Of a stretch of DNA of 50,164 nucleotides, positions 5,068-42,598 are shown piece by piece (the first letter of the stretch is position 1; the number at the start of each line of letters is the position of its first letter). The notes under the pieces were generated by a model. It made no database searches. It saw nothing but the letters and a program-made list of their open reading frames with translations, and was not told where the DNA came from. A program made the position numbers and the translations under genes. This DNA is from Gemmatimonadaceae bacterium (GTDB taxonomy: Bacteria; Gemmatimonadota; Gemmatimonadetes; Gemmatimonadales; Gemmatimonadaceae), in NCBI GenBank assembly GCA_013816855.1, contig JACDDT010000002.1:29378-79541 (forward strand), given 5' to 3'.

Positions 5068-5180
5068 AACTGCCACCAACGTCGCGAGACGTGAGAGGCA
5101 CGGAAGCCGAGGTTGGAGAAGCGCACTTCTCCGACACTCGGCTTCGCTACTTCTCGGACCTCGCGTCGTTGGTGGCAGTT
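5068..5180. repeat. Giant intergenic hairpin A (113 nt, imperfect palindrome)
   Basis: Arms of 21 nt at 5068-5088 and 5160-5180 are complementary with a single T/T mismatch. Nine-base arms at 5103-5111 and 5137-5145 pair perfectly. Ten-base arms at 5112-5121 and 5126-5135 pair with one G-T wobble around a CGCA tetraloop at 5122-5125. The unpaired segments between them are 14 nt on each side, so the element is fully symmetric. It sits between the small membrane protein gene and the tetR promoter. It lacks a trailing T-run, so a simple intrinsic terminator is not the obvious reading. Confidence 0.85.
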
Positions 5181-5216
5181 GTGGACCACCCAAGCCCGCC
5201 TCCGCCCGAAAACCCC

Positions 5217-5245
5217 TTGACGCGCCGAACCTATTCCCCTATCCT
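5217..5245 (+). promoter_or_regulatory. Sigma-70-type promoter of tetR
   Basis: TTGACG at 5217-5222 and TATCCT at 5240-5245 are separated by 17 bp, a good vegetative promoter. The predicted start site, near 5252, falls inside the operator palindrome that follows, leaving a leader of about 20 nt before the ATG at 5273 with no evident Shine-Dalgarno sequence. Confidence 0.7.
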
Positions 5246-5246
5246 T

Positions 5247-5260
5247 ACTGACCAGTCAGT
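5247..5260. promoter_or_regulatory. TetR-type operator palindrome
   Basis: ACTGAC-CA-GTCAGT is a perfect 6+2+6 inverted repeat two bases after the -10 hexamer. Location over the transcription start and 12 bp before the tetR start codon fits autorepression, the common arrangement for TetR regulators of efflux genes. Binding is inferred. Confidence 0.7.
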
Positions 5261-5272
5261 TATTTATCAACA

Positions 5273-5944
5273 ATGACCACCAAAACCCCCCACAAAGCCC
5301 GCACGCCCCGTTGGAAGCGGCGGCCTGAGCACCGCCCGGCTCAGATAATCCAGGCCGCGCTTGAGGTTTTTGGGAAAAAGGGGCTCGCTAGAACCCGCTT
5401 GGAGGACATCGCCACCCGCGCCGGCGTCTCGAAAGGCACCATCTACCTCTATTTCGAGAACAAGGAAGCGCTCTTCAAGGAAATGGTTCGGGAGACCGCC
5501 ATCGCGGTCATCGAGCGCGGCGAAGAGCGCCCCACCAGTGGCAGCCCCTCTGATCAACTGCGGTATGTCATGGCTAATCATTGGGAATTCGTCCGGACCC
5601 CGGCCTTCTCGACGATTCACCGGCTGGTCATCGGTGAGCTCCACCAATTTCCAGACCTCGCCCGGTTCTACGCCGACGAAGTCATCACGCGGGGGATGAA
5701 CCTCATTACAGGGATCATCCGCCGCGGCATCGATGCCGGCGAATTCCGCGAGACCGACCCGGCCGCAGCTGCGCGGATGCTGGTTGCCCTCTTCGTGATG
5801 AATGGCGTGTGGTGCGACAAACGCGAGTGCCTGCCCGTCCTCGAAGGACGAACCGACGATCGCGCATTCGCCGACATAAGTGATTTCTATTTCAGCGCGC
5901 TGCGGCCGTCCACGGTCGCGACTGCCCAGGCAGACGGCGCGTGA
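5273..5944 (+). CDS. TetR/AcrR family transcriptional regulator
   Basis: A 223-residue repressor-type protein. The N-terminal helix-turn-helix is unmistakable (TRLEDIATRAGVSKGTIYLYF, about residues 40-62), followed by the typical ENKEALFKEMV. The C-terminal ligand-binding domain resembles the group often annotated TetR_C with an efflux neighbour. A basic N-terminal arm (KTPHKARTPRWKRR) precedes the HTH and may contact the minor groove. It is first in a co-directional run with tolC-like and hlyD-like genes, 19 nt before the tolC-like ATG, so it most likely controls the efflux genes and itself through the operator at 5247-5260. The inducer is unknown. Confidence 0.93.
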   Translation: MTTKTPHKARTPRWKRRPEHRPAQIIQAALEVFGKKGLARTRLEDIATRAGVSKGTIYLYFENKEALFKEMVRETAIAVIERGEERPTSGSPSDQLRYVMANHWEFVRTPAFSTIHRLVIGELHQFPDLARFYADEVITRGMNLITGIIRRGIDAGEFRETDPAAAARMLVALFVMNGVWCDKRECLPVLEGRTDDRAFADISDFYFSALRPSTVATAQADGA

Positions 5945-5963
5945 CAATCGCAACTCTCTCCAC

Positions 5964-7310
5964 ATGAAACTCTACCGAGCTCTCATCGCCGCGATCGCGT
6001 TCTGCCTCGCGCCATCCGTCGCGGCAGCACAGGACTCAACCACTCAGCGCCTCACCCTGAGCGATGCCGTTCGCATCGCCGCCCGCCAAAACGCCAATGT
6101 CGAGGTAGCCCGGCTACGCGCGGACGAAGCGGATGCCCGCGTTCGCGTGCGTCGCGCCGATCTGCTACCGAATGTCAGCTCGTACATTCAGGAAGCGGGA
6201 CGCACTTTCAACACGTCTACTCTCGGGATCGAATTCCCCACAGTCCCCGGACAGAAACCGCTCTTCGACCCGCGTGGCCAGGTTGAAGGTCCGATCAACA
6301 CCACCGATATCCGTGGGCGCTTTCAGCAGAGCCTCTTCGACGCCGGAGCGCTCGCACGCGTACGCGCCGCGAAAGCTTCTGCTCGCTCGAGCGACGCCGA
6401 CGCCGATCAGGCGGCCGAGCTCGCGGCCTCTACCGCGGCCTTCGCGTACGTCCGGACGATGCGCGCCGAGGCGGATCTTCGCGCGCGGCAGGCCGACACT
6501 ACTCTGGCAACGGAACTGCTCGGAATCGCCAAGTCGCAGCTGCAGGCGGGAACTGGCGTAGGCCTCGACGTCACCCGCGCGCGCGCGCAGCTCGCCGCAA
6601 CGAAGGCGAGCCTCATCGCTTCGCGAAACACCCGCGATCGTGCGCAGCTCGATCTGGCGCGCGCTCTTTCTCTGCCCGCCGATACCCGTCTCATCCTCGC
6701 TGACTCACTCGGCGCGAACGCGAACGTCGGCATCGCCGACGAGCCTGCGCTCGTCGCCCAAGCGATGACGAGACGTGCCGATCTGCGCGCAGAGGTTCAG
6801 CGGCTTCGCGCAGCGCAAACTTCGATCTCGGCAGTGCGCGCCGAGCGTTTGCCGACGCTTGGTCTTGTCGCCGATGACGGCGCCATCGGGAAAGTGGGCC
6901 AGCGTCTCCTCAACACGTACACATGGGGATTGCAGCTCACAGTGCCGTTGTTCGACGGATACCGCCGGGAGGGCCGCATTCAGGAACAGTCCGCCATCGC
7001 GGCGGAATCGCAGGCGCGCCTTCGCGATCTCGAGCTTCAAGTTTCCGCTGACGTGCACGGAGCGCTGCTCGACTTGAGCGGTGCGCGGGAGCAGGTGGAC
7101 GCCGCCCGCGAGCGTCTCACGCTCGCCGAACAGGAGCTCTCGCAGGCGAGAGAGCGATTCAACGCCGGTGTGGCAGGGAATGCAGACGTAGTAAACGCTT
7201 CGCTTGCTCTCACTACGTCCCGCTCGCTCGTAATCGACGCGGAGACATCGTACGATCTCGCGCGGGTGGCGCTCGCACGCGCAACCGGCGCCGCGACAGC
7301 ACTTCGATGA
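5964..7310 (+). CDS. TolC family outer-membrane efflux protein
   Basis: This 448-residue protein begins with a cleavable signal peptide (hydrophobic LIAAIAFCLAPSVAAAQD, predicted cut near residue 24), which fixes the start at 5964 instead of the longer frame from 5880 that runs into tetR. The mature part shows the two-fold TolC repeat: LSDAVRIAARQNANVEVARLR near the start, and a second repeat with TRRADLRAEVQRLRAAQ. Long Ala/Arg/Glu-rich helices (RLTLAEQELSQARERFNAGV) will form the periplasmic coiled-coil tunnel. It should be the outer-membrane channel of a tripartite export system with the adaptor encoded next. The actual substrate and the inner-membrane pump are not identified here. Confidence 0.93.
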   Translation: MKLYRALIAAIAFCLAPSVAAAQDSTTQRLTLSDAVRIAARQNANVEVARLRADEADARVRVRRADLLPNVSSYIQEAGRTFNTSTLGIEFPTVPGQKPLFDPRGQVEGPINTTDIRGRFQQSLFDAGALARVRAAKASARSSDADADQAAELAASTAAFAYVRTMRAEADLRARQADTTLATELLGIAKSQLQAGTGVGLDVTRARAQLAATKASLIASRNTRDRAQLDLARALSLPADTRLILADSLGANANVGIADEPALVAQAMTRRADLRAEVQRLRAAQTSISAVRAERLPTLGLVADDGAIGKVGQRLLNTYTWGLQLTVPLFDGYRREGRIQEQSAIAAESQARLRDLELQVSADVHGALLDLSGAREQVDAARERLTLAEQELSQARERFNAGVAGNADVVNASLALTTSRSLVIDAETSYDLARVALARATGAATALR

Positions 7311-7344
7311 GAGCACAATAGATTTCGGAACTCAAAGGAAAGAA

Positions 7345-8451
7345 ATGACAACCGCCGCCAGGCCCGATGCTTCGGTAGATGAAGACGCAGCAGTGATCGA
7401 CGAGCCGTCGGCCAAGAAAAAATTCATTCTGCCGATCGTCGGCATCATCCTCCTCGCCGCACTTTTTTGGGCGTTCAATCACTGGACCTATTCGCGCAGC
7501 CACCAAAGCACCGACAACGCGCAGGTGGACGGACATATCGTTCCGGTCATCGCGAAAGTCGGCGGCTACGTGAAGTCGGTTAACGCGGTCGAAAATGAGC
7601 CGGTGAAGCTGGGAGATCTGCTCGTGCAGATCGACGACGCGGATTATCGCCTGCGGCTAGCCCAGGCAAGCGCGGACTTTCTCGGTGCCGAAGCAGTTTC
7701 GGGCGGGGGCGGAGGCACAGGACAGGCGGAGGCACAGGTGCTCACTGCTGCCGGCCAGCGCTCTGCGCTCGAGGCGCAGGTCGGGGCCGCCCGCGCGAAT
7801 GCACGCAAGGCGGGGGCTGACCTCGCACGTGCGAGGGAGCTCGCAGCGAAACAGATCATCTCGCGGCAGCAGCTCGACGCCGCGCAGGCGGCCGCGTCAT
7901 CCGCGAATGCGAATTTGATCGCCGCCGAGCGGCAAGCTTCCGCGGCAACGGCGGGGGTCTCCGTTGCGCAGGCCGGAGTGAGAATGGCGAGTGCCCGCTC
8001 GCTGGGCGCGAAGGCGATGCGTGATAACGCCCAGCTCCAGCTCCAATACACGCGGATCACGGCGCCCGCCTCGGGCATCGTTGCGAAAAAGCAGGTGGAG
8101 ATCGGGCAGCTCGTCGCGGCGGGACAGCCAGTCCTCAACATCGTCGCGGACACCGGCGTCTGGGTGACTGCCAATTTCAAAGAGACTCAGCTCGCCAAGA
8201 TCCGTCCGGGCCAGCACACTGATTTCGATGTGGACGCCTACGGCTGCACCGGCAGCGGAGTGGTGGAGAGCGTGAGCGGTGCGACGGGAGCGAAGTTCGC
8301 GCTTTTGCCCCCTGACAACGCCACCGGCAACTTCACCAAGGTCGTGCAACGCGTGCCGGTTCGCATCAAGGTGGTGCGCGCGTGCAGCGCCGACCGCCCG
8401 TTACGGCCCGGCCTGTCTGTCAGTGTCCACATCGACACCCGGGGAAAATGA
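7345..8451 (+). CDS. HlyD/EmrA-type membrane fusion (periplasmic adaptor) protein
   Basis: 368 residues, preceded by AAAGGAAAG as a fair Shine-Dalgarno. A charged cytoplasmic N-terminus of about 27 residues is followed by one transmembrane span (FILPIVGIILLAALFWAF). Then comes a biotinyl-lipoyl-like half (QVDGHIVPVIAKVGGYVKSV), a long Ala-rich alpha-hairpin (about 110-215), the second lipoyl half (TRITAPASGIVAKKQVEIGQ) and a beta-barrel with WVTANFKETQLAKIRPGQ, a signature of the EmrA subgroup. EmrA proteins normally partner a DHA2-family MFS pump (EmrB), but none is encoded in the window. The gene after it is a sigma factor, 15 nt downstream. Confidence 0.93.
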   Translation: MTTAARPDASVDEDAAVIDEPSAKKKFILPIVGIILLAALFWAFNHWTYSRSHQSTDNAQVDGHIVPVIAKVGGYVKSVNAVENEPVKLGDLLVQIDDADYRLRLAQASADFLGAEAVSGGGGGTGQAEAQVLTAAGQRSALEAQVGAARANARKAGADLARARELAAKQIISRQQLDAAQAAASSANANLIAAERQASAATAGVSVAQAGVRMASARSLGAKAMRDNAQLQLQYTRITAPASGIVAKKQVEIGQLVAAGQPVLNIVADTGVWVTANFKETQLAKIRPGQHTDFDVDAYGCTGSGVVESVSGATGAKFALLPPDNATGNFTKVVQRVPVRIKVVRACSADRPLRPGLSVSVHIDTRGK

Positions 8452-8466
8452 AGGCGGCTCACTAGC

Positions 8467-9075
8467 GTGTCCGCTACAGCCAAGCCGGCGTCGGCGTTGG
8501 CAACTCCAGGCCTCGATTCTCAACGAACCGAGGCTTCTGCACGTATGCGAAACGAGGAGCAGGAGCTCGTCGCGCGGGCAAAAGCCGGCGACAGCGACGG
8601 CTTTGCGGGTTTGGTGAAGCTTCACCAGCGTCGTGCGTATCTCGTGGCGCGCGCGGTGGTGCTGACTCACGAAGACGCCGAAGATGCGGTGCAGGACGGC
8701 TTCATGCGCGCGTACCAGGCGTTGGACAGATTCGATGCGACGCAAAGCTTCGGCGCGTGGGTGAATAGAATCGTTGCCAATGCGGCACTTGATCTGTCAC
8801 GACGAAGAAAAGTGCGGGCAGCGGACGAGCTTTCCGACACGTACGCTTCGGCGTTTCGCGACCCCGCGGAAGACCGCGAGCTGCTTGAACGTTTGCAAGG
8901 CGCGCTGGCAACACTTCCGGAGCGTGCGCGGGCAGTGCTGGTGCTCCACGATATCGAAGGGTTCACGCACGCCGAGATAGGCGAGCTGTTGGGAATACCG
9001 GGGGGGACGGCGCGGTCCGATCTCCACCACGCTAGACGCAAATTGAAAATGCTGCTCGCGAACTTGAGGGCATGA
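8467..9075 (+). CDS. ECF-type RNA polymerase sigma factor
   Basis: 202 residues with sigma region 2 (HQRRAYLVARAVVLTHEDAEDAVQDGFMRAYQ, core binding and -10 recognition) and region 4 (LPERARAVLVLHDIEGFTHAEIGELLGIPGGTA, a HTH for -35 recognition). Regions 1.1 and 3 are absent, as expected for extracytoplasmic-function sigmas. The GTG at 8467 is given as start. An ATG at 8545 (residue 27) is a serious alternative, because family members usually begin just before the EEQELVARAKAGD segment and a GAGG lies upstream of it. The stop overlaps the next reading frame (ATGA), which encodes a membrane protein in the usual anti-sigma position. Confidence 0.93.
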   Translation: MSATAKPASALATPGLDSQRTEASARMRNEEQELVARAKAGDSDGFAGLVKLHQRRAYLVARAVVLTHEDAEDAVQDGFMRAYQALDRFDATQSFGAWVNRIVANAALDLSRRRKVRAADELSDTYASAFRDPAEDRELLERLQGALATLPERARAVLVLHDIEGFTHAEIGELLGIPGGTARSDLHHARRKLKMLLANLRA

Positions 9076-9086
9076 GGAGACTGGAA

Positions 9087-9479
9087 ATGGACATTCACTC
9101 GAACGACAGACTGGACGAAAACGTCATCGGCGCGATGCAGAGCATTTACGCGTCGCCGGAGGATGCCGGCTATTGGGATTCACTCCACGCGGGCATCATG
9201 GCGCACATCGGATCCGGCGCACTGCCGCTGCGCAATGCCGCTTGGTATTCCGTTCTCGCCCACTGGGCGGCTCCGGGACTGGCCGCTGCCGCTCTCATGC
9301 TTGCGGCCGCAGGAGCGCTCTGGTCGCGCGTGGACCGGGCGGAACAGCGAAACACGTACGAAGGTTTCACGCAGCCAATGGTAGCGGAAGCGATGCCGGG
9401 CGCGACGGAGCTGCTCGATCTCCCGCGCGATGGCAGCACGCAGCGTGAAGCGACGCTTTCCTACGTGCTCTCCCACTGA
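9087..9479 (+). CDS. Single-span membrane protein in anti-sigma position, putative
   Basis: The start at 9087 is chosen because AGGAG at 9075-9079 lies seven bases upstream. An ATG at 9072 overlapping the sigma stop adds five residues and is possible. The product (130 aa) has an acidic cytoplasmic N-terminal part (about 1-50), one membrane span (WAAPGLAAAALMLAAAGALW) and a periplasmic tail of about 50 residues. That topology, and its place directly after an ECF sigma gene, match anti-sigma factors. I do not see a clear zinc-containing HxxxCxxC anti-sigma motif, so the role rests on position and topology. Confidence 0.65.
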   Translation: MDIHSNDRLDENVIGAMQSIYASPEDAGYWDSLHAGIMAHIGSGALPLRNAAWYSVLAHWAAPGLAAAALMLAAAGALWSRVDRAEQRNTYEGFTQPMVAEAMPGATELLDLPRDGSTQREATLSYVLSH

Positions 9480-9490
9480 GATAAGTGACA

Positions 9491-9922
9491 ATGCAGAACT
9501 CAAAAGGCTATGCGATGATGTTTCTCCTCGGCGCTTTCGTCGCAGGGGGAGCGCTTGGTTTCACCGCCGACAGAATGGTGCAGAACTCAGCGCGCGACTG
9601 TCACGGGCACGAGAACTTCCGGGCTCGAATCGAGAAGGAGCTGCGCCTCAACACGACCCAGAAAACAGCCATCGACTCGCTCATGACGGAGCGTCACCGG
9701 CAGATTGTCGCGCTCTTCAAACCGGTGAAGCCGCAACTGGATTCGATCAATGCCGCGGCGCGTGTGGTAAGCGAAAGCACGCACGAGCAGATCAAGCGCC
9801 TGCTCGACCCGTCGCAGCGTGTCGCATTCGACAAGATGCGCGATGCCGCCCGGAAGGACATGGACCGTAACCGGCAAAGGTGGAGCAGTCCCGGCGCTAC
9901 GAGCAAGCCCGATTCCAGGTAA
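9491..9922 (+). CDS. Periplasmic CpxP/ZraP-like (Spy, heavy-metal sensor) protein
   Basis: About 143 residues with an N-terminal membrane anchor or signal (YAMMFLLGAFVAGGALGF) and a helical periplasmic domain containing LRLNTTQKTAIDSLMTERHRQI and the LDPSQRVAFDKMR segment, equivalent to the paired LTxxQ...L(T/D)xxQ repeats of Spy/CpxP/ZraP/CnrX proteins. These bind misfolded proteins or metals in the periplasm and tune envelope stress signalling. A Cys-His-x-His near residue 38 (DCHGHE) could bind metal. It is the last gene of the tetR-tolC-hlyD-sigma run and ends at a strong terminator. An ATG at 9491 is favoured over GTG at 9485, and the difference is trivial. Confidence 0.75.
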   Translation: MQNSKGYAMMFLLGAFVAGGALGFTADRMVQNSARDCHGHENFRARIEKELRLNTTQKTAIDSLMTERHRQIVALFKPVKPQLDSINAAARVVSESTHEQIKRLLDPSQRVAFDKMRDAARKDMDRNRQRWSSPGATSKPDSR

Positions 9923-9926
9923 GACA

Positions 9927-9962
9927 AAAAAAGAGCCGGCGTAAAAACGCCGGCTCTTTTTT
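9927..9962. terminator. Bidirectional intrinsic terminator
   Basis: A 15-bp stem (9927-9941 with 9948-9962) has a GC core GAGCCGGCG, a loop of six bases, A-run on the left and T-run on the right, so it can terminate from either side. It separates the sigma/CpxP-like operon (+) from csbD (-), which are convergent. Confidence 0.93.
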
Positions 9963-9977
9963 CAGTGTGGTCGCAGT

Positions 9978-10178
9978 CTAGTGATTGTCCGGATCGGCGT
10001 TCTTCTCGCCCTTCCCGAAGTTCTTCTGGACTTTTCCCTCGAGCTGTTCGGCGCGGCCCTTCAGATGCTCGCTGGTGTTGTCGGTCGCGTCACCGACGTC
10101 TCCGCGAACCTTTCCCTTCATTTCCTTAGCGGCGCCCTTCACTTCATTCTTGATGCCCTTGCTGTTGAGATCTTCCAT
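9978..10178 (-). CDS. CsbD family stress-response protein
   Basis: 66 residues, highly charged, without hydrophobic segments: KGIKNEVKGAAKEMKGKVRG, then HLKGRAEQLEGKVQKNFGKG. This is the CsbD repeat pattern of small soluble proteins induced by general stress. An excellent AGGAGG (10183-10188) four bases before the ATG fixes the start at 10178 and excludes the 116-residue extended frame. The molecular role of CsbD is not well established. Transcription shares the terminator at 9927-9962. Confidence 0.88.
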   Translation of the reverse strand: MEDLNSKGIKNEVKGAAKEMKGKVRGDVGDATDNTSEHLKGRAEQLEGKVQKNFGKGEKNADPDNH

Positions 10179-10344
10179 ATAGCCTCCTGAGCAATGTTTG
10201 CGTGCCGTTCTGTACATCGTCATAATTGCAATGGACGTGCCCCGGTTAACCCTCTTGGGAATGCCGTAAAACAAGAGTCTTGCCATGGGGATGACATTCG
10301 GAAAGATTCCGACTTCCAGCACACTCACTCTCTAGGTCGCCCCA

Positions 10345-12243: not shown

Positions 12244-12315
12244 ATCTGGGCGGGCTCTTCTCCGATTTTCGCGTAGTGCTCGGAGATCATTTGCGCCGCA
12301 CCTTCGCGAGTGACT

Positions 12316-12717: not shown

Positions 12718-12756
12718 CTTCTTAAAATGCCGCGCTGATGCGGCGGCCGCAAAGCA

Positions 12757-14804: not shown

Positions 14805-14886
14805 ACGATCAGCAGGCTGAAAGCGTAGTATAGGCATTGGACAAATGCGGGAACCTCCTTCGAACCAAACAACCCGGGACACGAAA

Positions 14887-29760: not shown

Positions 29761-29869
29761 CTATGTGTTCTCTCCAAAATGTTCGCGTTTGTCTTCGAAA
29801 TTTATTGCGCGGGCGTGCCTAGGGTTACCCCGGGGGACGGTGAGCGCGGCACTTGCACTCGACGAACGC

Positions 29870-30334
29870 ATGCAAACGTTATCTGAATCGGAGAACGAGA
29901 GCGAATGGAGCGCGCGCATAATCAACGATGCGGCTGGCATCCGGCGCATTCTCGAGGAAACGCACCGCATTGCAGTCCTCGGCATCAAGATCGATGCGTC
30001 GCAGCCTGCGTACTATGTGCCCGAATACGCGAAGGAGGCAGGATACGAGATCGTGCCGGTGCCGGTTTACTATCCGGACGCCACGGTGATCCTGGGTGAG
30101 AAAGTTTTCCGTACCGTCGCTGGTGTGCCCGGCGAAGTAGATATGGTGAATGTTTTTCGCCGACCGGCGGATATCGATGCGCACGTTGACGATATCATTG
30201 CGAAAAAGCCGAGGTCGGTTTGGTTTCAGGCCGGGATAAGGAATGACGGCGCGGCGGAGAGGTTGGCGCGGGCGGGGATCGAGGTAGTGCAGGATCGATG
30301 TCTGCTGGTTGAGTTGAGAAGGATTGGGAAGTGA
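29870..30334 (+). CDS. CoA-binding domain protein (YccU-like)
   Basis: 154 residues with a Rossmann-like CoA-binding fold: HRIAVLGIKIDASQPAYYVPEYAKEAGYEIVPVPVYY, then NVFRRPADIDAHVDDIIAKK, VWFQAGIRNDGAAERLARAG and VVQDRCLLVEL. These are the family's nucleotide-binding segments; E. coli YccU is a close relative. The biochemical role is unknown. Start at 29870 (MQTLSESENESEWSARI) is favoured over longer frames because the fold begins about 25 residues later and there is no upstream Shine-Dalgarno pattern for the others; a GTG at 29840 is possible. Confidence 0.85.
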   Translation: MQTLSESENESEWSARIINDAAGIRRILEETHRIAVLGIKIDASQPAYYVPEYAKEAGYEIVPVPVYYPDATVILGEKVFRTVAGVPGEVDMVNVFRRPADIDAHVDDIIAKKPRSVWFQAGIRNDGAAERLARAGIEVVQDRCLLVELRRIGK

Positions 30335-30349
30335 ACTACAACTGCAACC

Positions 30350-30475
30350 GAACACGTTCCGCGTTCCCGGTAACTAACGTGACCGGTTGCCGGTTAGGCC
30401 GAATGGATTTCCACCGGGGTACTGGTTCTGACCGGTGACGGGCAACGTTTTCTCCGGGAAACGCGGAACGTGTTC
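30350..30475. repeat. Giant intergenic hairpin B (126 nt)
   Basis: Arms at 30350-30370 (21 nt) and 30454-30475 (22 nt) are fully complementary apart from one bulged base, with the core GAACACGTTCCGCG. The interior (83 nt) has weaker nested pairing (AACGT 30376-30380 with ACGTT 30445-30449 and ACCGGT repeats). It fills almost all of the spacer between the convergent CoA-binding (+) and lipoprotein (-) genes. No T-run follows on either strand. Confidence 0.8.
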
Positions 30476-30496
30476 AGTCAGTGGTCGTCGTTATCG

Positions 30497-31534
30497 CTAC
30501 CAACTGACCCGATACACCACCACCTCAACCGGCATTTCCCCCGCTGAAACTTTCGCCCTCGGCGCGAGCGCGACAATGAATCCTCCGCCGGCGGTTGCGG
30601 CGAGCGCTGCGCCGGGACCGACGACATAAGGAGCGGCTCCGCTGTCTGCGGCGGAAGAAATCGTGATCACTCCGCGCTCGCTCGTTATTGTGAGCTGCTT
30701 TCCATCGCGCATCGCTTTGATAGGCGGCGCCTTACTCACATCGGGCCCGCTGTCGCCGTGCAGCACCGGTCCGCTCGACATCTGCGGCTCGAGAATTTTT
30801 GCAGTCGAGGGCAGCGAGCCGTGGAACTCCCCGGTTTTTGGATCTAGCGCAGTCCAGCTTTCGCTCGGCTCCGCGTCGAGCGAGCGCGTCGGCGTATTAC
30901 CGAGCGCGATGAGCGCCCCGTCGGCCGTCCATCGCACGCGCCAGCCGCGCGCGATCGGAAACATTCTAGGTGCGGCGCTGTCGCCGGCGGTAACGCTGTG
31001 CGCATCAACGGGAACACGAATGATTCCCGCTTGTGCGACCGATCGCGCCGAAGACATTCCACTGCTCGCAAATGAAGCTGCACGCAGCGCCGCAGTATCG
31101 ATTGACGTCCGCCGCGCGAGATCGCTGAGATAAACCGGATCGCTCGTGCCCGAACCGTCTACGACTTGGTAAGCGCGACTGAATGCGAGCGTTTTCCAGT
31201 CGGGAGACACGGCGACGTCCCACACACTGTCCATCCGAGCCTGGAACCCTGTCGCCTCGTCCCCAAAAACGAACCCGTTTGGAATCGCGTCCGCTTCAGC
31301 GCCCGAAGGATCGGCGATCACGAGCACGGATTTCTTGTCGGCGGAGAACATCCAGCTCACGCGCTCGCTCATTCCCTGCGTTCCGCGGTTTACTTGAATC
31401 GTCGTGACCACCGGCGCCGTGCTCGCGCTGTCCGAGACGGATTCCTTTCGCTTCACGTCCTTGGCGCATGCCGCGAGCGCTGCGAGTGAGATGCCAAGCG
31501 TGATTGTGCGCCGCAAAATGTCTCCGAGTTTCAC
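30497..31534 (-). CDS. Putative lipoprotein with WD40/beta-propeller-like sequence, unknown
   Basis: 345 residues if the GTG at 31534 is the start, which puts a signal with lipobox LAAC directly at the N-terminus (RRTITLGISLAALAAC); the frame is open to 31591 but that extension would displace the signal. The mature part has repeated beta-strand patterns typical of propellers (SWMFSADKKSVLVIADPSG, VSPDWKTLAFSRAYQVV, WRVRWTADGALIALGN) with 'DGxxLAxx' style blades. No catalytic motif seen. It ends by the giant hairpin B. Located downstream of gyrA beyond a strong terminator, so it has its own promoter. The function is unknown, and a periplasmic binding role is only a guess. Confidence 0.75.
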   Translation of the reverse strand: MKLGDILRRTITLGISLAALAACAKDVKRKESVSDSASTAPVVTTIQVNRGTQGMSERVSWMFSADKKSVLVIADPSGAEADAIPNGFVFGDEATGFQARMDSVWDVAVSPDWKTLAFSRAYQVVDGSGTSDPVYLSDLARRTSIDTAALRAASFASSGMSSARSVAQAGIIRVPVDAHSVTAGDSAAPRMFPIARGWRVRWTADGALIALGNTPTRSLDAEPSESWTALDPKTGEFHGSLPSTAKILEPQMSSGPVLHGDSGPDVSKAPPIKAMRDGKQLTITSERGVITISSAADSGAAPYVVGPGAALAATAGGGFIVALAPRAKVSAGEMPVEVVVYRVSW

Positions 31535-31589
31535 TGTCGTTGGATTCGTTGGTTGGCCTACGGTCCCTTCTATACTGATTCGCGCTATC

Positions 31590-31632
31590 ACAAAAAGAAA
31601 GAAGGCCTGAACCTTAATGGCTCAGGCCTTCT
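31590..31632 (-). terminator. Intrinsic terminator of gyrA
   Basis: An 11-bp stem (AGAAGGCCTGA at 31600-31610 with 31622-31632) is followed on the minus strand by TTTCTTTTTG, a good T-tract. It lies 20 bases after the gyrA stop and isolates gyrA from the lipoprotein gene. Confidence 0.9.
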
Positions 31633-34590: not shown

Positions 34591-34615
34591 CAAGAGCATA
34601 AAACCGGAGACGAAG

Positions 34616-35500: not shown

Positions 35501-36449
35501 GAATAAGACACGCCCGGCGGACTACCGACCGCTGCTCCAGCTCTATCTTCGAAAGAATGCGGAAGGTGGGGCTTTGCTCTCTCCCGCTGACATCCGCACA
35601 AGCGCAGACGAGCTCACTCGGCGCGAATGCGTGGTACTAGTTCACGGTTTCAACAACACCGACAGCGAAGCGAGCGAGGCGTATCTCGGTTTTCGCACTC
35701 GCGAGAAAGAGATTTTCTCGCCGGCGGATCCACAGACTTTCGAACACTTGTTCGCCGATGCTTTCTGGCCGGGCGATGCCGACTGGTGGTCGTTCTTCGA
35801 CAGGGCGGATTTTCTCATTTATCCGGCGGCCGTTCACACCGCCGTGCGTGCAGCGAGGGAGCTGGCGAACGCGCTCTGGCGGATGCCGAATCTCGAGACC
35901 GTGGATTTCATCGGTCACTCCCTCGGCTCCCGCGTTGTGCTCGAGACACTGCTTTTACTGCGAGCGCGTGCAATGCCGCGCATACGCAGGGTGGCGCTGA
36001 TGGCGGCAGCCGTGCCGTCGGAAATGCTGGAGCCGCGTGGAAGATTTTACGATTTACTGATTGCATTGCAGGGTGACGGATCGACGATCGACATTCTTCA
36101 TTCCAAGGCAGATACCGTTCTACACTACGCGTTTCCGCCGGGTCAATCGCTTGCGGGGGGACGTGAGGCGTCTGAGAGGGCGCTGGGTAGATTCGGTCCG
36201 TCGCCCCTCATGCCGGGATATCGCGCGAACGTTTCCGAGCGTGAGATCGGTGGAGCCGCGCACGGCGACTATTGGGGCCACAGCAAGACGGCGTCGTCTC
36301 GCGTCGCGACGGAGGAGGCAGGGCGGTTCCTTCGCCTCGGGGAGTTCAAGAGAGAAATCGGGACTGTGCGTGTCACTGGCTCATCCGCCGCCGAGATTAA
36401 AGCGCGCGAGCTGGGAGTTACGCGCACTATTGGCGAGATTGGTTATTGA
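35493..36449 (+). CDS. Alpha/beta hydrolase of the DUF900 type (lipase/esterase-like)
   Basis: 318 residues. An oxyanion/strand segment ECVVLVHGFNNTDSEASEAY leads to a nucleophile elbow FIGHSLGSRVVLETLLLL with Ser143 (GHSLG), a classic alpha/beta hydrolase core. A C-terminal His in AHGDYWGHSKTAS is a candidate catalytic His, and an Asp in HSKADTVLHY is a candidate acid. The HGFNNT segment is characteristic of the DUF900 group. There is no signal peptide, so it is cytosolic and presumably acts on a membrane-linked or soluble ester. It overlaps the preceding membrane protein (8 nt) and the following small membrane protein (1 nt), a tightly coupled unit. Confidence 0.88.
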   Translation: MGKNKTRPADYRPLLQLYLRKNAEGGALLSPADIRTSADELTRRECVVLVHGFNNTDSEASEAYLGFRTREKEIFSPADPQTFEHLFADAFWPGDADWWSFFDRADFLIYPAAVHTAVRAARELANALWRMPNLETVDFIGHSLGSRVVLETLLLLRARAMPRIRRVALMAAAVPSEMLEPRGRFYDLLIALQGDGSTIDILHSKADTVLHYAFPPGQSLAGGREASERALGRFGPSPLMPGYRANVSEREIGGAAHGDYWGHSKTASSRVATEEAGRFLRLGEFKREIGTVRVTGSSAAEIKARELGVTRTIGEIGY

Positions 36450-36721
36450 TGACACAGCTAATTTCTCTTCTCGCCGCGATGCTCATTCTCGTGCCGTTTG
36501 CCATGACACTGCTGTCGAGAATGACGACGACGAGCGTGTCCTATCTGACGATGAACCTCATCGGTTCAGTGGCTCTCACTGCGATCGCAATCGCGGGCAG
36601 GCAATACGGCTTCATCTTGCTCGAGGGAGTTTGGGCGCTGATGAGCGCTATCGGCCTCGTCCGGACGCTCCGCCGCCCGATTCCGTATGATATGTCTTCC
36701 CCGAACAGGAAGACAAAATGA
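36449..36721 (+). CDS. Small membrane protein, CBU_0592-like
   Basis: 90 residues with three hydrophobic segments: LISLLAAMLILVPFAMTLL, then YLTMNLIGSVALTAIAIAG and FILLEGVWALMSAIGLV. The NLIGSVALTAIAI...FILLEGVWALMSAIGL pattern resembles the CBU_0592 family of small integral membrane proteins as I remember it. The ATG overlaps the TGA of the hydrolase gene. Its own stop overlaps the next microprotein gene (ATGA). Function of the family is unknown. Confidence 0.7.
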   Translation: MTQLISLLAAMLILVPFAMTLLSRMTTTSVSYLTMNLIGSVALTAIAIAGRQYGFILLEGVWALMSAIGLVRTLRRPIPYDMSSPNRKTK

Positions 36722-36792
36722 GAACCGCAATCCTCGTCGCAGTCGCCTTTGTCATCGTAATGCTCATAATGAAGCGCCGCCGCGGAGTGTAG
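36718..36792 (+). CDS. 24-aa single-span membrane microprotein
   Basis: ATG at 36718 overlaps the stop of the preceding gene (ATGA), giving a 24-residue peptide MRTAILVAVAFVIVMLIMKR plus RRGV: one hydrophobic span followed by a cluster of Lys/Arg that would keep the tail in the cytosol. The overlap, hydrophobic span and three-base proximity to the next ATG (36795) suggest genuine coupled translation. It is too short for most gene finders. It could be a regulator or assembly peptide for the neighbouring membrane proteins. Confidence 0.55.
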   Translation: MRTAILVAVAFVIVMLIMKRRRGV

Positions 36793-36794
36793 TG

Positions 36795-37169
36795 ATGGTG
36801 AAGGAAGCGGCCACTCCGTTAGGAAAGCTCCGTAAAGTTTGTCTCGCGTTTCCTGAAGCGCACGAGGTCGAAGCGTGGGGAGAACCGACGTTCCGTGTGA
36901 AGAACAAGATTTTCGCGATGTACGGGAGCGACAGCTCATCGCATCACAGCGGCCGGCCGGGAGTCTGGATCAAGTCGAAACACACCGTTCAGGAGATTCT
37001 TCTACAGAGCAGTCCGGCGCGATACTTCAAGCCACCGTACGTCGGTCCCGGCGGATGGACCGGAGCATACCTCGACAAGAAACCGAATTGGGAGGAGCTC
37101 GCCGAGCTCCTCGAAGACGCGTATAGGCAAACCGCGCCGAAGAAGCTGATCGCGAAGCTGACCGACTGA
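36795..37169 (+). CDS. MmcQ/YjbR family DNA-binding-like protein
   Basis: 124 residues. Landmarks of the MmcQ/YjbR fold: LRKVCLAFPEAHEVEAWGEPTFRVKNKIFAMY, VWIKSKHTVQEILLQSS, RYFKPPYVGPGGWTGAYL and WEELAELLEDAYRQTAPKK. The AWGEPTFRVKNKIFA segment is diagnostic. These proteins have a cytosolic double-wing-like fold, and DNA binding was suggested but not established. ATG at 36795 follows the microprotein stop by two bases; a longer frame to 36687 overlaps two upstream genes and is rejected. Confidence 0.9.
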   Translation: MVKEAATPLGKLRKVCLAFPEAHEVEAWGEPTFRVKNKIFAMYGSDSSSHHSGRPGVWIKSKHTVQEILLQSSPARYFKPPYVGPGGWTGAYLDKKPNWEELAELLEDAYRQTAPKKLIAKLTD

Positions 37170-37198
37170 CTTCATGACATAGCCGGCCGACGAGCGGG

Positions 37199-37425
37199 CG
37201 CTTGGCCATCCCAACCACGGAAAGATTACTGCGTACTAAAGCGGGGAGCTGTAAGCGACTCAAGCCGTACAGGCGTAAGCTCTTCATTTGCACGAAGAGA
37301 GACACCGAACCTTCGGCTCCGCCTCGTTGAATCCCGGCATGAAAGCTTGTAGCTAAAAAGCTTAACAGCTTAGAGCTCCCCGCTTTAGTACGAGAAATTC
37401 CCTCGGCCGTTGGGATGGCCCAGCG
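37199..37425. repeat. Giant intergenic hairpin C (about 227 nt)
   Basis: Outer arms GGCCATCCCAAC (37204-37215) and GTTGGGATGGCC (37409-37420) pair perfectly and extend by CGCT/AGCG at the ends (37199-37202 with 37422-37425). Inner arms of 24 nt (37233-37256 with 37368-37391) pair with one mismatch, including an 18-bp perfect block GTACTAAAGCGGGGAGCT. A small CTCTTC/GAAGAG stem lies inside. The element occupies most of the spacer between the convergent MmcQ-like (+) and M3 peptidase (-) genes. Confidence 0.85.
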
Positions 37426-37451
37426 GCCGAGTGGATCCCCGAAGCATTACT

Positions 37452-39629
37452 TCACCTGCGAACCGGTATCTCCTTCAGACCGCGCTCGATCAGCAACGGC
37501 TCGACGACTGGATCGCGGCCCCGGAACGCGCGATAGAGGGCCGCTGATTCCACACTCCCGCCGCGCGAAAGAATCATTTCGCGGAAGCGCTGTCCGTTCG
37601 CTCGTGTTAACCCCCCGTTCTCCTGGAACCAGGCGAACGCGTCGTCATCGATGACTTCACTCCAAAGGTACGCGTAATACGACGCCGCGTATCCGCCGTC
37701 CCAGACGTGCGAGAAGTACGTAGTCCGATAGCGGGGCGGAATCTCCTGAATCGCCACACCAAAACGCTGAAGCGCCTGCGCTTCGAACGTATCGACGTCC
37801 GGCTGTGCCGCCCCCGGTGCCTGTGTATGCCACGCCATGTCGAGCAGCGATGCGGCTAGATACTCCGTCGTCTTGAAGCCCTGATTGAACGTGCGCGCTG
37901 TCCTGATCTTGCTCACAAGCGACTGCGGCATCCGCTCACCGGTCTGATAATTTTTCGCGTAATTCGCGAAGACCGTTGGATCGAGGGCCCAGTGTTCGTT
38001 GAACTGCGACGGGAATTCCACATAGTCCCGTGGAACGTTGGTGCCCGCGAACGTCGGATATTGGACATTCGAGAACAGCCCGTGAAGGGCATGCCCGAAC
38101 TCGTGGAACATCGTCGTCACATCGTCGAAGCTCAGGAGAGCGGACTGGCCCGGTGCCGGCTTCTGAAAATTCGCGACGTTGAACACAACGGGGCGCGTGC
38201 CCATCAGGCCCGACTGATCGACGAAGCTCGACATCCACGCGCCGCCGCCCTTGTTGTCACGTTTGAAGTAATCGGTGTAGAACAGCGCCATCGATCCGCC
38301 ATTGGCGTCGAATACCTCGAACACGCGCACGTCGGGGTGATAAACCGGAATGTCGTGGCGCTCCTTGAACGTCAGCCCGTACAGCTTGTTCGCAGCGAAG
38401 AACACTCCGTTCTGAAGAACGTTGTTCAGCTCGAAGTAAGGTTTGATCTGCGATTCATCTAGCGCGTACTTCTCTTTTCTCACCTGCTCCGCGTAATACT
38501 GCCAGTCCCACGGTGCGAGCTTGAACCCGCCGCCCTGCTTGTCGATGACAGCCTGCATGTCCGCGGCCTCGCGTCTGGCTTTCGCCGTCGCGGCGGGAAC
38601 CATGTCCGTAAGAAGCTTGATAGCATTCTCCGGGGTCTTTGACATCTGGGTTTCAAGTCGGTACGCAGCGTATGTCGGATAACCCAGGAGCTTCGCCTTT
38701 TCTGCGCGTAGCTGTGCGAGTCGCGTTACGAATCCGCGGGTATCCGTGCTGTCGCCGTGCTCCGCGCGCCTCGTCGAAGCTTCGAACAGGCGCTTACGCG
38801 TGGCCCGGCTCTGCAGCTCCTGCTGACGCGGATGCTGCGTAGTGTTCTGAAGTGGAACCACCCACTTCCCGGTGAGCCCACGATCCTTCGCCGCCTCTGC
38901 GGCCGCCGCGGTCTCGCCTTCGGTGAGACCGGCGAGTTCCGATGCGTCGTCAACGATGAGTGCTCCAGCTTTCGTCGCGGCGAGGAGCTTGTTGTGGAAC
39001 TGGCTCCCCAGCTTCGACTCTTCCTCGTTCAGCGCACGCAACTTCGTCTTGTCGGCCTCGGGCAGCAGCGCGCCGGCGCGAACGAAGTTTTTGTAATACC
39101 GCTCGGCGAGGTACTGCTGCACCGGATCGAGACCGGACGTCGCGCGACCGTCGTACACACTCTTCACACGGGCGAATAGCTTCGGGTTCAGGTAGATCGC
39201 GTCGGAATGCGCAGCTCTACGCGGCGACTCTAACTCATCGACCTTTTGCAGGGTGTCGTTCGTGTTGGCTGAATTGAGCGCGTCGAAAACGTTCACGACA
39301 CGTGTGAGGAGAACGCCGGAATGCTCCATCGCTGCGATCGTATTATCGAATGTCGGCGCCTCAGCCCGGTTCGCGATCGCCTCCATGTCGGCCAGGTCCT
39401 GCCGCATTCCCTCTTCGATCGCCGGTTGGAAGTCCGTGTCTTTGATCCTATCGAAAGGCGGAGCCTGATAGAGAAGCGTGCTCGCCGAGTAGAACGGATT
39501 GGAAGGCGAGAGCGTGTTAGTCGTGTTGGGAGTCGTCGCTGGCACCGGAGTGCTGGCCGGAGGTGGGTAGGAGCAGCCGAAAGCGAGAGTGGAAACGGCT
39601 GCCAGGGACAGAAGTCGTGACTGAGACAT
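37452..39629 (-). CDS. M3 family oligopeptidase, lipoprotein
   Basis: 725 residues. The zinc motif FHEFGHALHG (HExxH) lies in the C-terminal half, with the M3 companion Glu further downstream. Thimet oligopeptidase/Dcp-like landmarks include the N-terminal FDNTIAAMEHSGVLL region, SMALFYTDYFKRDNKGGGAWM and a Tyr-rich C-terminus (YYAYLWSEVI) that positions substrate. The start at 39629 places a lipoprotein signal (LAAVSTLAFGC, Cys19) at the front, followed by a Pro/Thr-rich linker (PPPASTPVPATTPNTT). So this is a membrane-anchored periplasmic oligopeptidase, unlike the usual cytosolic OpdA. It may trim peptides produced by periplasmic proteases. Convergent with the MmcQ-like gene through hairpin C. 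Confidence 0.93.
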   Translation of the reverse strand: MSQSRLLSLAAVSTLAFGCSYPPPASTPVPATTPNTTNTLSPSNPFYSASTLLYQAPPFDRIKDTDFQPAIEEGMRQDLADMEAIANRAEAPTFDNTIAAMEHSGVLLTRVVNVFDALNSANTNDTLQKVDELESPRRAAHSDAIYLNPKLFARVKSVYDGRATSGLDPVQQYLAERYYKNFVRAGALLPEADKTKLRALNEEESKLGSQFHNKLLAATKAGALIVDDASELAGLTEGETAAAAEAAKDRGLTGKWVVPLQNTTQHPRQQELQSRATRKRLFEASTRRAEHGDSTDTRGFVTRLAQLRAEKAKLLGYPTYAAYRLETQMSKTPENAIKLLTDMVPAATAKARREAADMQAVIDKQGGGFKLAPWDWQYYAEQVRKEKYALDESQIKPYFELNNVLQNGVFFAANKLYGLTFKERHDIPVYHPDVRVFEVFDANGGSMALFYTDYFKRDNKGGGAWMSSFVDQSGLMGTRPVVFNVANFQKPAPGQSALLSFDDVTTMFHEFGHALHGLFSNVQYPTFAGTNVPRDYVEFPSQFNEHWALDPTVFANYAKNYQTGERMPQSLVSKIRTARTFNQGFKTTEYLAASLLDMAWHTQAPGAAQPDVDTFEAQALQRFGVAIQEIPPRYRTTYFSHVWDGGYAASYYAYLWSEVIDDDAFAWFQENGGLTRANGQRFREMILSRGGSVESAALYRAFRGRDPVVEPLLIERGLKEIPVRR

Positions 39630-39757
39630 GAACGTTTTTTCCTCTTTTGTCGCGTTCAAAGCGCGTGCTGAAAGGATGCCGGAATGGGAGCGCGCGGCGC
39701 AAGCCGCGTACGCTTTCGAACGGGTTCAAAGCACGTTTCCTGCCAATCATACCCGCT

Positions 39758-40144
39758 ATGATAAGAGTAGTTCGACTTGGGAGCGCGCGACTGCCCCGCG
39801 AAGGGATTCGCCTGGGTACGGTGCGGCGCCCTCCACGCGGTGTTCGGAAAGAAGATTTCACAAAGCAGGATTTTTTCGACGTGTGGATGCCGGAGCTCGC
39901 GCCCAGTGCCCCCCTCGTATCGTGGGCTCTGAGGGATCCGTTCAATCCAGCACGCTGGGCGCGCTACGAAAGGGCGTACCGAACCGAGATGAAGAAGCCC
40001 TCGGCGCAGCGGCTGATAAGCCTCCTCGTCGCCATTTCCAAGGACTCGAACATCTCGGTGGGCTGTTACTGCGCCGATGAGTCAAAATGCCATCGCTTCA
40101 TCCTCAAGGATCTCCTTATTAGGGCGGGCGCTGAGATACCTTAG
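39758..40144 (+). CDS. DUF488 family protein
   Basis: 128 residues. DUF488 landmarks: IRVVRLGSARLPREGIRLGT, DVWMPELAPSA, RWARYERAYRTEM and the C-terminal SVGCYCADESKCHRFILKDLL with its Cys-x-Cys...Cys-His set. These are small cytosolic proteins of unknown biochemical role, often near nucleic-acid modification genes. The ATG at 39758 is chosen because the fold starts here; the frame runs further upstream to 39647 but overlaps the divergent promoter region of the peptidase. Followed after 5 nt by a glycosyltransferase gene. Confidence 0.85.
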   Translation: MIRVVRLGSARLPREGIRLGTVRRPPRGVRKEDFTKQDFFDVWMPELAPSAPLVSWALRDPFNPARWARYERAYRTEMKKPSAQRLISLLVAISKDSNISVGCYCADESKCHRFILKDLLIRAGAEIP

Positions 40145-40149
40145 ATAGA

Positions 40150-40926
40150 ATGCCAAGGATCTCACTCGTCATACCCGCATTCAACGAGGAGCAGTTTCTC
40201 CCCGCGCTACTCGACAGCGTGGATGTGGCGCGCGCGCGTTACTCGCGCGGGCAGACCGAAGTCGAAGTTATCGTTGCCAACAACTGTTCCACCGATCGCA
40301 CTTCGGAGATCGCGCGGTCCCGCGGCTGCGTCGTTGCAGACGTGGACAAGCCGGTGATAGCTGCATCGCGCAACGGAGGCGCTCTCGCGGCGACGGGGGA
40401 CATCGTCGCCTTCATCGATGCAGACTGCACCATTCACCCCGAGACTTTCAACGTCATCGAAGACACGATGTCGTCGCAAAAAGCTGTCGCGGGTGCAACC
40501 GGCGCGCGCTTCGACCGCAGCTCTTTGGGTATCGCGGCGACGACGCTGCTAGGCGAGGTCCTGTTCTTCCTCGCGAACCTCGACATCGGAGTCGTGTTCT
40601 GTCGACGGGCCGACTGGGAAGCTGTCGGCGGATACGATGAAAATCTGAAGGTAGCCGAGGACGTCGAATTTCTCGTTGCGCTGAAGCAACTCGGCAAAAA
40701 ACGCGGCCAGCGATTCGTTCGCGCGAAAGGCGCCCGCGCTAAAACATCAGCGAGAAAGTTCGATACGCGCGGTGACTGGCATTACTTCACGATGGGGCCA
40801 CCAACCGCCGTCTTTTATCTGCTCTTAAATCGCTCTGCGCTGCAGAAGCAGATGGGCGATTCCCTCATCAGCGAATATTGGTACGATGTTCGTAAGGCCC
40901 TCCCCTCTTCTCGAGGGTCCGAATGA
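40150..40926 (+). CDS. Glycosyltransferase family 2
   Basis: 258 residues, GT-A fold: ISLVIPAFNEEQFLPALLDSV at the N-terminus, ASRNGGALAATGDIVAFIDADC with the DxD-type acidic metal site, and a WEAVGGYDENLKVAEDVEFL segment with a catalytic Asp/Glu. A hydrophobic segment TTLLGEVLFFLANLDIGVVF may touch the membrane. No signal peptide. It transfers a sugar from a nucleotide sugar to an unknown acceptor, perhaps a lipid or surface polymer. It is 5 nt after the DUF488 gene and may be cotranscribed. Confidence 0.9.
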   Translation: MPRISLVIPAFNEEQFLPALLDSVDVARARYSRGQTEVEVIVANNCSTDRTSEIARSRGCVVADVDKPVIAASRNGGALAATGDIVAFIDADCTIHPETFNVIEDTMSSQKAVAGATGARFDRSSLGIAATTLLGEVLFFLANLDIGVVFCRRADWEAVGGYDENLKVAEDVEFLVALKQLGKKRGQRFVRAKGARAKTSARKFDTRGDWHYFTMGPPTAVFYLLLNRSALQKQMGDSLISEYWYDVRKALPSSRGSE

Positions 40927-40990
40927 ACACGTTTCAAGGAATTGGATTTGTTCTGCGTGCATCCGGCATGCACCGCGACGTGCCTTCCGT

Positions 40991-42439
40991 TTAATCTCGA
41001 GCGACCCGGTCACCCGTACGGCCCTTCCTAAAATGGAGGAAAATCGGCGCCCCGATCGCAATAAGGACGAGGCCGGCGGCGGACTCGACGGGATTCGTGC
41101 GCAAAGTATTTATGAGAAGCCAAAGCGCCACTACCACAAACAGAGCGGGAAGTACCGGATAGCCGAGAACGCGATACGGGCGCGGGGCGTCCGGCTGCTT
41201 CCTCCGCAGAACGAAAACCGCGCCAGCCGTAAGCGCGAAGAATATCCAGACGGCAAATACGCACGCCGTCGTGATCTGATCGAAAGTGCCGGAGAGAGCG
41301 AGAATGCTGCCGAGTATTCCTTCAATCCAAATAGCCCGGGCGGGAACCTGTTCCGCGTTGAGCTCGCCGAGCTTCGGAAAGAACATTCCATCGCGCGCCA
41401 TCGCGAACGGCACACGTGAGTTCATGATAATGATGCCGTTCAGCGAGCCCATTACCGAGACGAGAAACGAGATCGAAACGATCTTGCCACCAGCGCTGCC
41501 GAGGAAGCTTTGCGCCGCTTTGGCCGCGACTGGAAGCGCATTTCTGAAAGCGGTCGAGTTGGAGTTCGCCACTTCGCCGAACGGAAGCGCGTAGAAGTAC
41601 GCGAAGTTCGTAAGCAGGTAAACGCCGAGCACAATCAGCATACCGTACATGAGACCGCGCGGGACGTTTCTCTGGGGATTCTCGATCTCGCCGGATACCA
41701 TCGTCATGTTGCTCCAGCCTTGAAACGCCCACAACGCCGCTATCATCGCCGCACCGAAGGCCGTGAAGGTGAGCGTGGTGGCGGCTGCCCCGGGGTACGC
41801 GGTCGCGCCTGGCGATGGCGGCGTGAAGTTCCCCATCGATCGAGTGTGCGAGAAGAAGAACGCACCTAGGACGATTGCGCCGATGCCGATGAACTTCGCG
41901 AGCGTAAGCAGCGACTGTGTAGCCCCGCCCGTGGATACGCGCGCGCTGTTCATCGCGCAGAAAACGAAAATGGTAGCGACCGCGACGACCTGCTGGGCGC
42001 CGAACGTCCAATGAATGTTCTGACCGAGCAGGTGAATATCCCGCGCCGCCCAAACCGCACCGACGGGAACGAGCGCAGAAAGAAAAGAAGCAAAACCGGT
42101 GGCGATCGCGGCGAGGCCGGTCGTGGTAATTACCGCAAAGTTCGTCCAACCGAACATGAAAGCGGGAAAATCTCCGTACGCCTCGCGCAGGAATACATAA
42201 TCCCCGCCGGCTCGCGGATACATCGCACCAAGCTCTGCGTAGGTCAGCGCACCCGCGAGAGAGAGGACACCGGCCGCGATCCAAGCGAGAAGGACCATCC
42301 CCGGGGATCCGAGCAGCTGGGACATCGGCGCAGCTTTGAAAAAAACGCCGGTGCCAATGACTGTGCCCACCAGAAGCGCGATCGCGTCGCGGAGACTGAG
42401 GAGACGGGCGAGATCCCTCTGTACCTTGGGAGTGCTCAA
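40991..42439 (-). CDS. APC superfamily amino-acid permease
   Basis: 482 residues with about 12 membrane spans. The first span has the family glycine motif (LVGTVIGTGVFF) used for substrate backbone binding, and the second segment is GALTYAELGAMYPRAGGDYVFLREAYG, a strong APC signature. Later blocks: GWSNMTMVSGEIENPQRNVPRG and NSRVPFAMARDGMFFPKLGELN. The C-terminus ends in a basic tail (FRKGRTGDRVARD). It likely takes up an amino acid or polyamine by proton symport. Preceded on its 5' side by giant hairpin D, which separates it from the MscS-like gene on the same strand. Confidence 0.93.
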   Translation of the reverse strand: MSTPKVQRDLARLLSLRDAIALLVGTVIGTGVFFKAAPMSQLLGSPGMVLLAWIAAGVLSLAGALTYAELGAMYPRAGGDYVFLREAYGDFPAFMFGWTNFAVITTTGLAAIATGFASFLSALVPVGAVWAARDIHLLGQNIHWTFGAQQVVAVATIFVFCAMNSARVSTGGATQSLLTLAKFIGIGAIVLGAFFFSHTRSMGNFTPPSPGATAYPGAAATTLTFTAFGAAMIAALWAFQGWSNMTMVSGEIENPQRNVPRGLMYGMLIVLGVYLLTNFAYFYALPFGEVANSNSTAFRNALPVAAKAAQSFLGSAGGKIVSISFLVSVMGSLNGIIIMNSRVPFAMARDGMFFPKLGELNAEQVPARAIWIEGILGSILALSGTFDQITTACVFAVWIFFALTAGAVFVLRRKQPDAPRPYRVLGYPVLPALFVVVALWLLINTLRTNPVESAAGLVLIAIGAPIFLHFRKGRTGDRVARD

Positions 42440-42453
42440 CGGAAACTACAGCT

Positions 42454-42598
42454 GAACGGGATGCGGGATCTCAGAAGCATAGTTGCAGGTTTCTGGAAAC
42501 TACCACGAGACCGTCCTGGGCACGCCAAGGACACCGACCGGTCTTGGAGTAGTTTCAAGCATCAGAGATCTGCGCCTCTGACAACCCGCATCCCGTTC
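42454..42598. repeat. Giant intergenic hairpin D (145 nt)
   Basis: Outer arms of 14 bp (GAACGGGATGCGGG at 42454-42467 with 42585-42598) are perfect, followed by GATCTC/GAGATC (42467-42472 with 42565-42570), an 18-nt arm pair (42496-42513 with 42539-42556, four mismatches) and an 8-bp top stem (42513-42520 with 42525-42532, one mismatch) with a CACG tetraloop. It lies between the MscS-like gene end and the APC permease start on the minus strand. Confidence 0.85.

Follow-up and report, generated by a model that had tools for sequence, protein, structure and literature searches.

The window studied here is a 50,164-nucleotide stretch of DNA from an uncultured Gemmatimonadaceae bacterium (assembly GCA_013816855.1, contig JACDDT010000002.1, positions 29,378 to 79,541), and it carries four giant hairpins, named A to D. 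We consider, with a probability of about two in three, that these hairpins are copies of several non-autonomous palindromic mobile repeat families working in the manner of REPINs (repetitive extragenic palindromic (REP) sequence doublets forming hairpins). The families are apparently mobile, and they are a known kind of element, present in this bacterium as new families. An earlier note on the same DNA had seen in the four hairpins a common architecture without common sequence, which it took as a sign of structure under selection and not of copy expansion of a single repeat.

Four hairpins and their repeat families

Hairpins A (5068..5180), B (30347..30478), C (37195..37429) and D (42454..42598), none of which is assigned to a strand, are the four longest inverted repeats in a repeat listing of the window. 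Inverted repeats were listed by a repeat search and the hairpins were rescored with our own gapped stem finder. At a score of at least 36, this finder returned only A to D in the window, and the maxima in four Markov shuffles did not exceed 35. The folding z-scores are -11.7 (A), -7.5 (B), -7.6 (C) and -8.6 (D), and none of 200 shuffles folds equally well. The four hairpins described by the earlier note are therefore real, and its description of them also holds: BLAST of A to D against each other gave no match, AAC and GTT stand at or near the ends of three of them (C being the exception), and all four are intergenic, each adjoining at least one gene 3' end. With the Rfam 15 models at gathering score, no match was obtained in the window.

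The genome around the window comprises 2.47 Mb in 170 contigs and is 95% complete, and by its gyrase A it stands nearest to Gemmatimonadaceae; a sample of 1.159 Mb (47% of the genome) was scanned for hairpins. From 27 hits with a score of at least 32, we retained 20 long hairpins (92-235 nt, about one per 58 kb) after dropping six short terminator-like ones (<80 nt) and one odd case of 85 nt near a contig end, in which tandem and inverted repeats are mixed (L032:122-206). Sequence matches brought in three further elements that the finder had missed (L022, L196 and L024), for a set of 23. The 27 hits compare with 2 in one equally long shuffle, and the excess over shuffled sequence that the earlier note proposed to look for is present in this sample. 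Its density of one hairpin per 12 kb is only local, the window being a local cluster (probability of at least four hairpins in the window, 0.006). Long hairpins as such are ordinary. At a score of at least 34 and a span of at least 80 nt, there are 19 in the 1.159 Mb of this genome, 12 (one within an open reading frame (ORF)) in 67 gyrA loci from other phyla that also total 1.159 Mb, and 9 (two within ORFs) in 13 gyrA loci of Gemmatimonadota that total 175 kb.

When the elements were compared by BLAST with the sampled genome, they fell into families A to F and one singleton, and for 19 of the 20 long hairpins a relative was found at another place in the sample. Hairpins A, B, C and D are each members of a separate family with further genomic copies, which explains why they have no sequence in common. 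The sample contains six copies of family A, five of B, about four sites of C, three copies each of D and E, and three whole plus three one-armed copies of F. Two copies of family A on the same contig, behind two adjacent long genes, may represent one duplication; some of the family C sites are visible only at contig ends, and two of them (L063 and L184), which overlap, may be the two sides of one copy.

In the whole genome, family A occupies six sites, and family B shows 17 matches at about ten sites. No match of family B was found in 40 relatives. Among the 41 genomes searched, family A was found outside its own genome only on one contig (C15) of the congener G012. This contig is identical to the present species over the 113 bases of A, with two flanking proteins 100% identical; it is probably a contamination and was not scored as an independent relative. 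The same contig has an integron-integrase match over the cut-off at 378-1148. Family D is more widespread, with matches in 7 of the 41 genomes: three sites in its own genome, 15 matches in G001, 25 in G011, 18 in G014 and 13 in G016, and single weak matches in G002 and G003. A hairpin was present in 11 of the 16 congener D loci that were cut out. Ten of these hairpins are D-type and span 164-201 bp, except that one of the ten was called at 238 bp, extended by repeated ends. We aligned 14 D rows from five genomes (10 congener hairpins, L219 from G001 and the three copies from the own genome), without the L344 hairpin (G003) and without a second hairpin in L347 that is cut. In this alignment the inverted ends are conserved, and the middle is partly conserved and more variable. 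Hairpin D itself has terminal inverted repeats around AACTGAACGGGATGCG. Against collections of plasmids and phages, element D gave no match.

Families A, B, D, E and F and the singleton carry variants of AACTGCAAC as their outer word. The exact word is present 16 times in the sample: 10 times at the 23 elements, five times elsewhere in intergenic DNA and once in the 976 kb of coding sequence. By eye, the ends are of the AACTGC type; hairpin A runs from AACTGCCAC to GTGGCAGTT, hairpin B has AACTGC repeats immediately outside it, and hairpin C has no AACTGC end. Of the GTAG and CGTC tags that mark the ends of REPs of 20-40 bp, CGTC was noticed within the arms of A and GTAG within those of F.

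Several irregular copies were also seen. The one-armed F copies lie at L036:1270-1360, L053:7900-7998 and L167:8390-8480, and the first has a series of AACTGC-type hexamers at its end, next to a stretch that resembles a tRNA. Two inverted B arms span 580 bp at G000:C113:26557-27136, possibly a longer B member with a larger middle. In L341, L348, L351 and L355, the D end of about 30 nt is repeated on one side of the element.

Turnover of sites and position relative to genes

Orthologous spacers were located in congeners with the flanking proteins as anchors; the relatives are draft genomes, and home-made scripts were used both to call genes and to find stems. At the A site, the orthologous spacer has no hairpin in any of eight congeners, and the same is true of the D site in all nine congeners compared. 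The B site lies between convergent genes. Among 17 congeners, five have a hairpin there with a score of at least 34 and a sixth has one with a score of 27, while in ten the spacer is bare and 12-69 nt long, and in one the neighbourhood (298 nt) is changed and without a hairpin. The congener hairpins at the B site are of about four sequence types and unlike B, save for a 21-nt match with that of G007. Those of G007 and G009 are one type; for those of G008, G017, G015 and G012, the one match seen is of 13 nt, between G007 and G008. The outermost hairpin pairs of G009 and G017 include both stop codons. For the C site, 20 loci of relatives were cut out, and at the 15 scanned the peptidase neighbour is absent within flanks of 1.5 kb; the C neighbourhood is not conserved among relatives.

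Taken together, the repeat families, the empty A and D sites and the different hairpins at the B site point to copy expansion with fast turnover. The opposition drawn by the earlier note between selected structure and copy expansion of a single repeat is not supported, and one of the three origins it had offered, remnants of mobile elements, is supported by the dispersed families and the empty orthologous sites.

The elements are not distributed evenly with respect to genes. With the exclusion of L175:82-229, at a contig end and without a left gene, 22 elements have genes on both sides; 12 lie between convergent genes, 10 between co-directional genes and none between divergent genes. In comparison, all spacers of at least 100 nt, element-bearing ones included, number 32 convergent, 147 co-directional and 63 divergent (convergent excess, P = 5e-6; absence from divergent spacers, P = 0.0013). 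The closest called 3' end is at most 40 nt away for 18 of the 22 elements.

In the window, A starts 18 nt past the stop codon of a 47-aa ORF (4906..5049, + strand) that our own unpublished codon-usage ORF caller had overlooked. This ORF, with one hydrophobic stretch, is a candidate small unannotated membrane protein; it overlaps the end of a cyclophilin gene, and a similar stretch aligns in eight congeners. Downstream of A lies a gene for a TetR-type regulator (5273..5944, +), and a promoter-like stretch between them (TTGAC..TATCCT, read by eye) is left intact. B is flanked by the 3' ends of two convergent genes, a CoA-binding-domain gene (29765..30334, +) and a 364-aa ORF without Pfam match (30497..31591, -). 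C is likewise flanked by the 3' ends of a YjbR-family gene (36687..37169, +) and a Peptidase M3 gene (37452..39659, -). D lies 15 nt from the 5' side of an amino-acid permease gene (40991..42439, -; ORF start as listed) and 15 nt from the 3' end of a mechanosensitive-channel-type gene (42613..43437, -). PADLOC gave no match for four flanking proteins.

Pairing evidence and alternative explanations

Location behind 3' ends, most marked where genes converge, together with very stable folds, would also suit a class of RNA 3' structures common to the lineage, in which transcribed hairpins terminate or protect the mRNAs from one side or from both and the fold is selected. Published stem-loops likewise concentrate at 3' ends (PMC1590033). 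The covariation check proposed by the earlier note gave a divided answer. In the D alignment, 10 of 41 pairs are changed on both sides (shuffle mean 5.7, none of 500 as high), and slid pairings reach 5 at most. As the structure was derived from the same rows, the rows are related and the covariation term of RNAalifold is near zero, the evidence for a role of pairing in family D is moderate. In family A, only 1 of 29 pairs is changed on both sides, a value reached by 419 of 500 shuffles. The four other own-genome families have 10 compensatory pairs out of 186; for the five families together, compensatory changes affect 11 of 215 consensus pairs, and 62 vary by breaking only.

The tolerance of wobble in RNA should favour G-U pairs. 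No such bias is seen: co-directional elements have 24 G-T and 21 A-C mispairs when read on the sense strand, and in convergent elements the ratio is 31:32, so an RNA-level class is not favoured. The empty A and D sites and the missing Rfam match also speak against it. Moreover, the hairpins do not appear to replace terminators. In a crude scan, intrinsic terminators are no rarer beside hairpins, being found in 5 of 12 convergent spacers with a hairpin versus 14 of 32 without, and in 3 of 10 co-directional spacers with a hairpin versus 33 of 200 without; by eye, a terminator-like stretch precedes two of the hairpins. As for A to D acting themselves as intrinsic terminators (a GC-rich stem followed by a U-tract), inspection by eye found no T run in the 3' flanks of A, B and C, and D has TTTT on the + strand only, whereas its genes read on the - strand. 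An RNA class is accordingly an unlikely account of these hairpins.

In a second account, about equally unlikely, new hairpins form on the spot at gene ends, where short tandem repeats at the mirror-image 3' ends of convergent genes are copied by fold-back, and only some of these hairpins go on to spread. It would explain how the B site could bear about four types of hairpin unlike B in 5 of 17 congeners, and how the outermost pairs in G009 and G017 take in both stop codons. In addition, 14 of 21 hairpins from related Gemmatimonadota have short-period arms (shuffle fraction <=0.02), eight of them with a period of 7 or 14. Against this origin, such periodicity is present in only 3 of the 20 own-genome hairpins (and in 2 of 7 tested from other phyla), and all but one of these 20 are related to copies elsewhere in the sampled genome. 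The short-period hairpins may be a second class, or a young form of the mobile families. Giant hairpins with arms of short tandem repeats, frequently 7-nt ones, and in some cases with almost perfect arms, were seen in Gemmatimonadota at L229:1294-1473, L230:1952-2094, L311:1982-2203, L226:2899-3064, L082:4-190 and L082:1046-1161, and similar ones in Thiotrichaceae and Sedimenticola contigs at L112:14929-15066 and L115:542-649.

A bolder version, to which we give a similarly low probability, combines both processes. One mobiliser in the genus would recognise little beyond a short AACTGC-type end word and the fold, spread many palindromes of unrelated body and refill the same convergent gene ends, some hairpins being made on the spot from 7-nt repeats. 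If true, this would be a palindrome-making and palindrome-moving system without a Y1 transposase.

Somewhat less probable again are classical miniature inverted-repeat transposable elements (MITEs), i.e. remnants of an insertion sequence with a DDE transposase and terminal inverted repeats. Conserved inverted ends, a variable middle and dispersed copies are what such elements would show, and terminal inverted repeats are indeed present in the D copies. However, a match of at least 4 nt by the ends, as expected from target-site duplication, was found in 11 of 36 elements and thus not above the mixed-flank controls (55 of 190), and no parent insertion sequence was seen. Among the listed D matches there is no inverted pair 1-5 kb apart; in G014, two D matches of the same orientation are separated by 3.7 kb.

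Orphan integron attC recombination sites, suggested by the AAC/GTT ends, the size, the location behind genes and integron integrases over the cut-off in 15 of the 41 genomes of the group, are very improbable, since the two boxes, taken as RYYYAAC and GTTRRRY, occur together in 0 of 20 elements (one box in 3 of 20), no integrase exceeds the cut-off in the own genome, and the elements are scattered and not in cassette arrays.

Likeness to known repeats and meaning

The mobile palindromic families have their closest parallels among REPs, REPINs and bacterial interspersed mosaic elements (BIMEs). The described pattern is one of inverted doublets forming hairpins, with conv-REPs near both 3' ends (PMC3116915, PMC3733652). 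The present elements likewise consist of two inverted repeats in one hairpin, dispersed in intergenic DNA in several copies. They resemble REPINs and BIMEs further in the conserved ends and variable spacer of family D, in the coexistence of single and double units, in lying mostly behind 3' ends or between convergent genes, and in forming several families per genome. The termini of GTAG REPs often provide a stop codon (PMC3733652), and here too termini touch stop codons, in the B-site hairpins of G009 and G017. The differences are that the Gemmatimonadaceae arms are longer than REPs of 20-40 bp, with stems mostly of 25-90 columns, and that, compared with REPINs, there are fewer copies, AACTGC-type ends and no detected Y1 transposase of the RAYT (REP-associated tyrosine transposase) type. 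Since no Y1 transposase, no target duplication, no attC pair and no Rfam match were found, we call the layout REPIN-like as far as the DNA shows, without classing the elements as REPINs. The candidate of a RAYT/REPIN system proper was set aside on the lack of a detected Y1_Tnp domain in the own genome.

Other repeats show partial likeness. Stem-loop sequence families, described in a survey of 40 bacterial genomes (PMC2267715, PMC1590033), are repeated and intergenic with a common predicted fold and, as here, are enriched at 3' ends. In TIRtrons (PMC3733652), which are linked to tyrosine transposases, long inverted repeats form mutually unrelated families of moderate abundance, some of them dimeric and partly self-complementary; they flank a Y1 transposase gene, whereas no Y1 gene was detected here. 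The TAACTGA repeats of Beggiatoaceae (PMC4679880) are short and intergenic and have a similar word (AACTGA against AACTGC), but they are direct and stand mostly just before start codons, whereas the Gemmatimonadaceae repeats are inverted and stand behind stop codons. In the open-licence literature, to which the search was limited and which does not show absence from print, we found no paper on repeats in Gemmatimonadetes or Gemmatimonas.

Several observations weigh against mobile families of this kind. Mobility is deduced from sequence comparison, and the empty A and D sites could in principle reflect loss in all relatives. Family A lacks covariation, family C lacks the common outer word, and copy numbers are low for REPs. 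Five of the 16 congener D loci have no hairpin at threshold, although at least one of these is cut by a contig end. The Y1_Tnp domain was detected neither in the own genome, which at 95% completeness is no proof of absence, nor in 15 of 18 congeners (it is present in three); G001, G011 and G014, three of the four D-rich congeners, are among those without it. No autonomous partner was found, and among the listed D matches there is no autonomous relative with the same ends. Finally, mobile families leave unexplained the many hairpins in relatives that are made up of short tandem repeats, frequently 7 nt long.

Under the REPIN-like reading, the element would be recognised in its single-stranded, folded form by an enzyme that copies it to new sites, and insertions would survive where no gene or promoter is broken. 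Pairing would be retained while a family is active and decay later, which would fit the covariation results of D and A alike. Once in place, a hairpin would at most serve passively as a barrier or insulator at the 3' end, a role also proposed for REP and BIME sequences.

The idea of structure without sequence thus gives way to a testable picture, that of several palindromic families with rapid turnover at the 3' ends of Gemmatimonadaceae genes. The D-rich congeners without a detected Y1 transposase raise the question of what moves REPIN-like DNA lacking a RAYT. The answer might extend to CGTC-type REPs, which are also reported without a dedicated transposase (PMC3733652).

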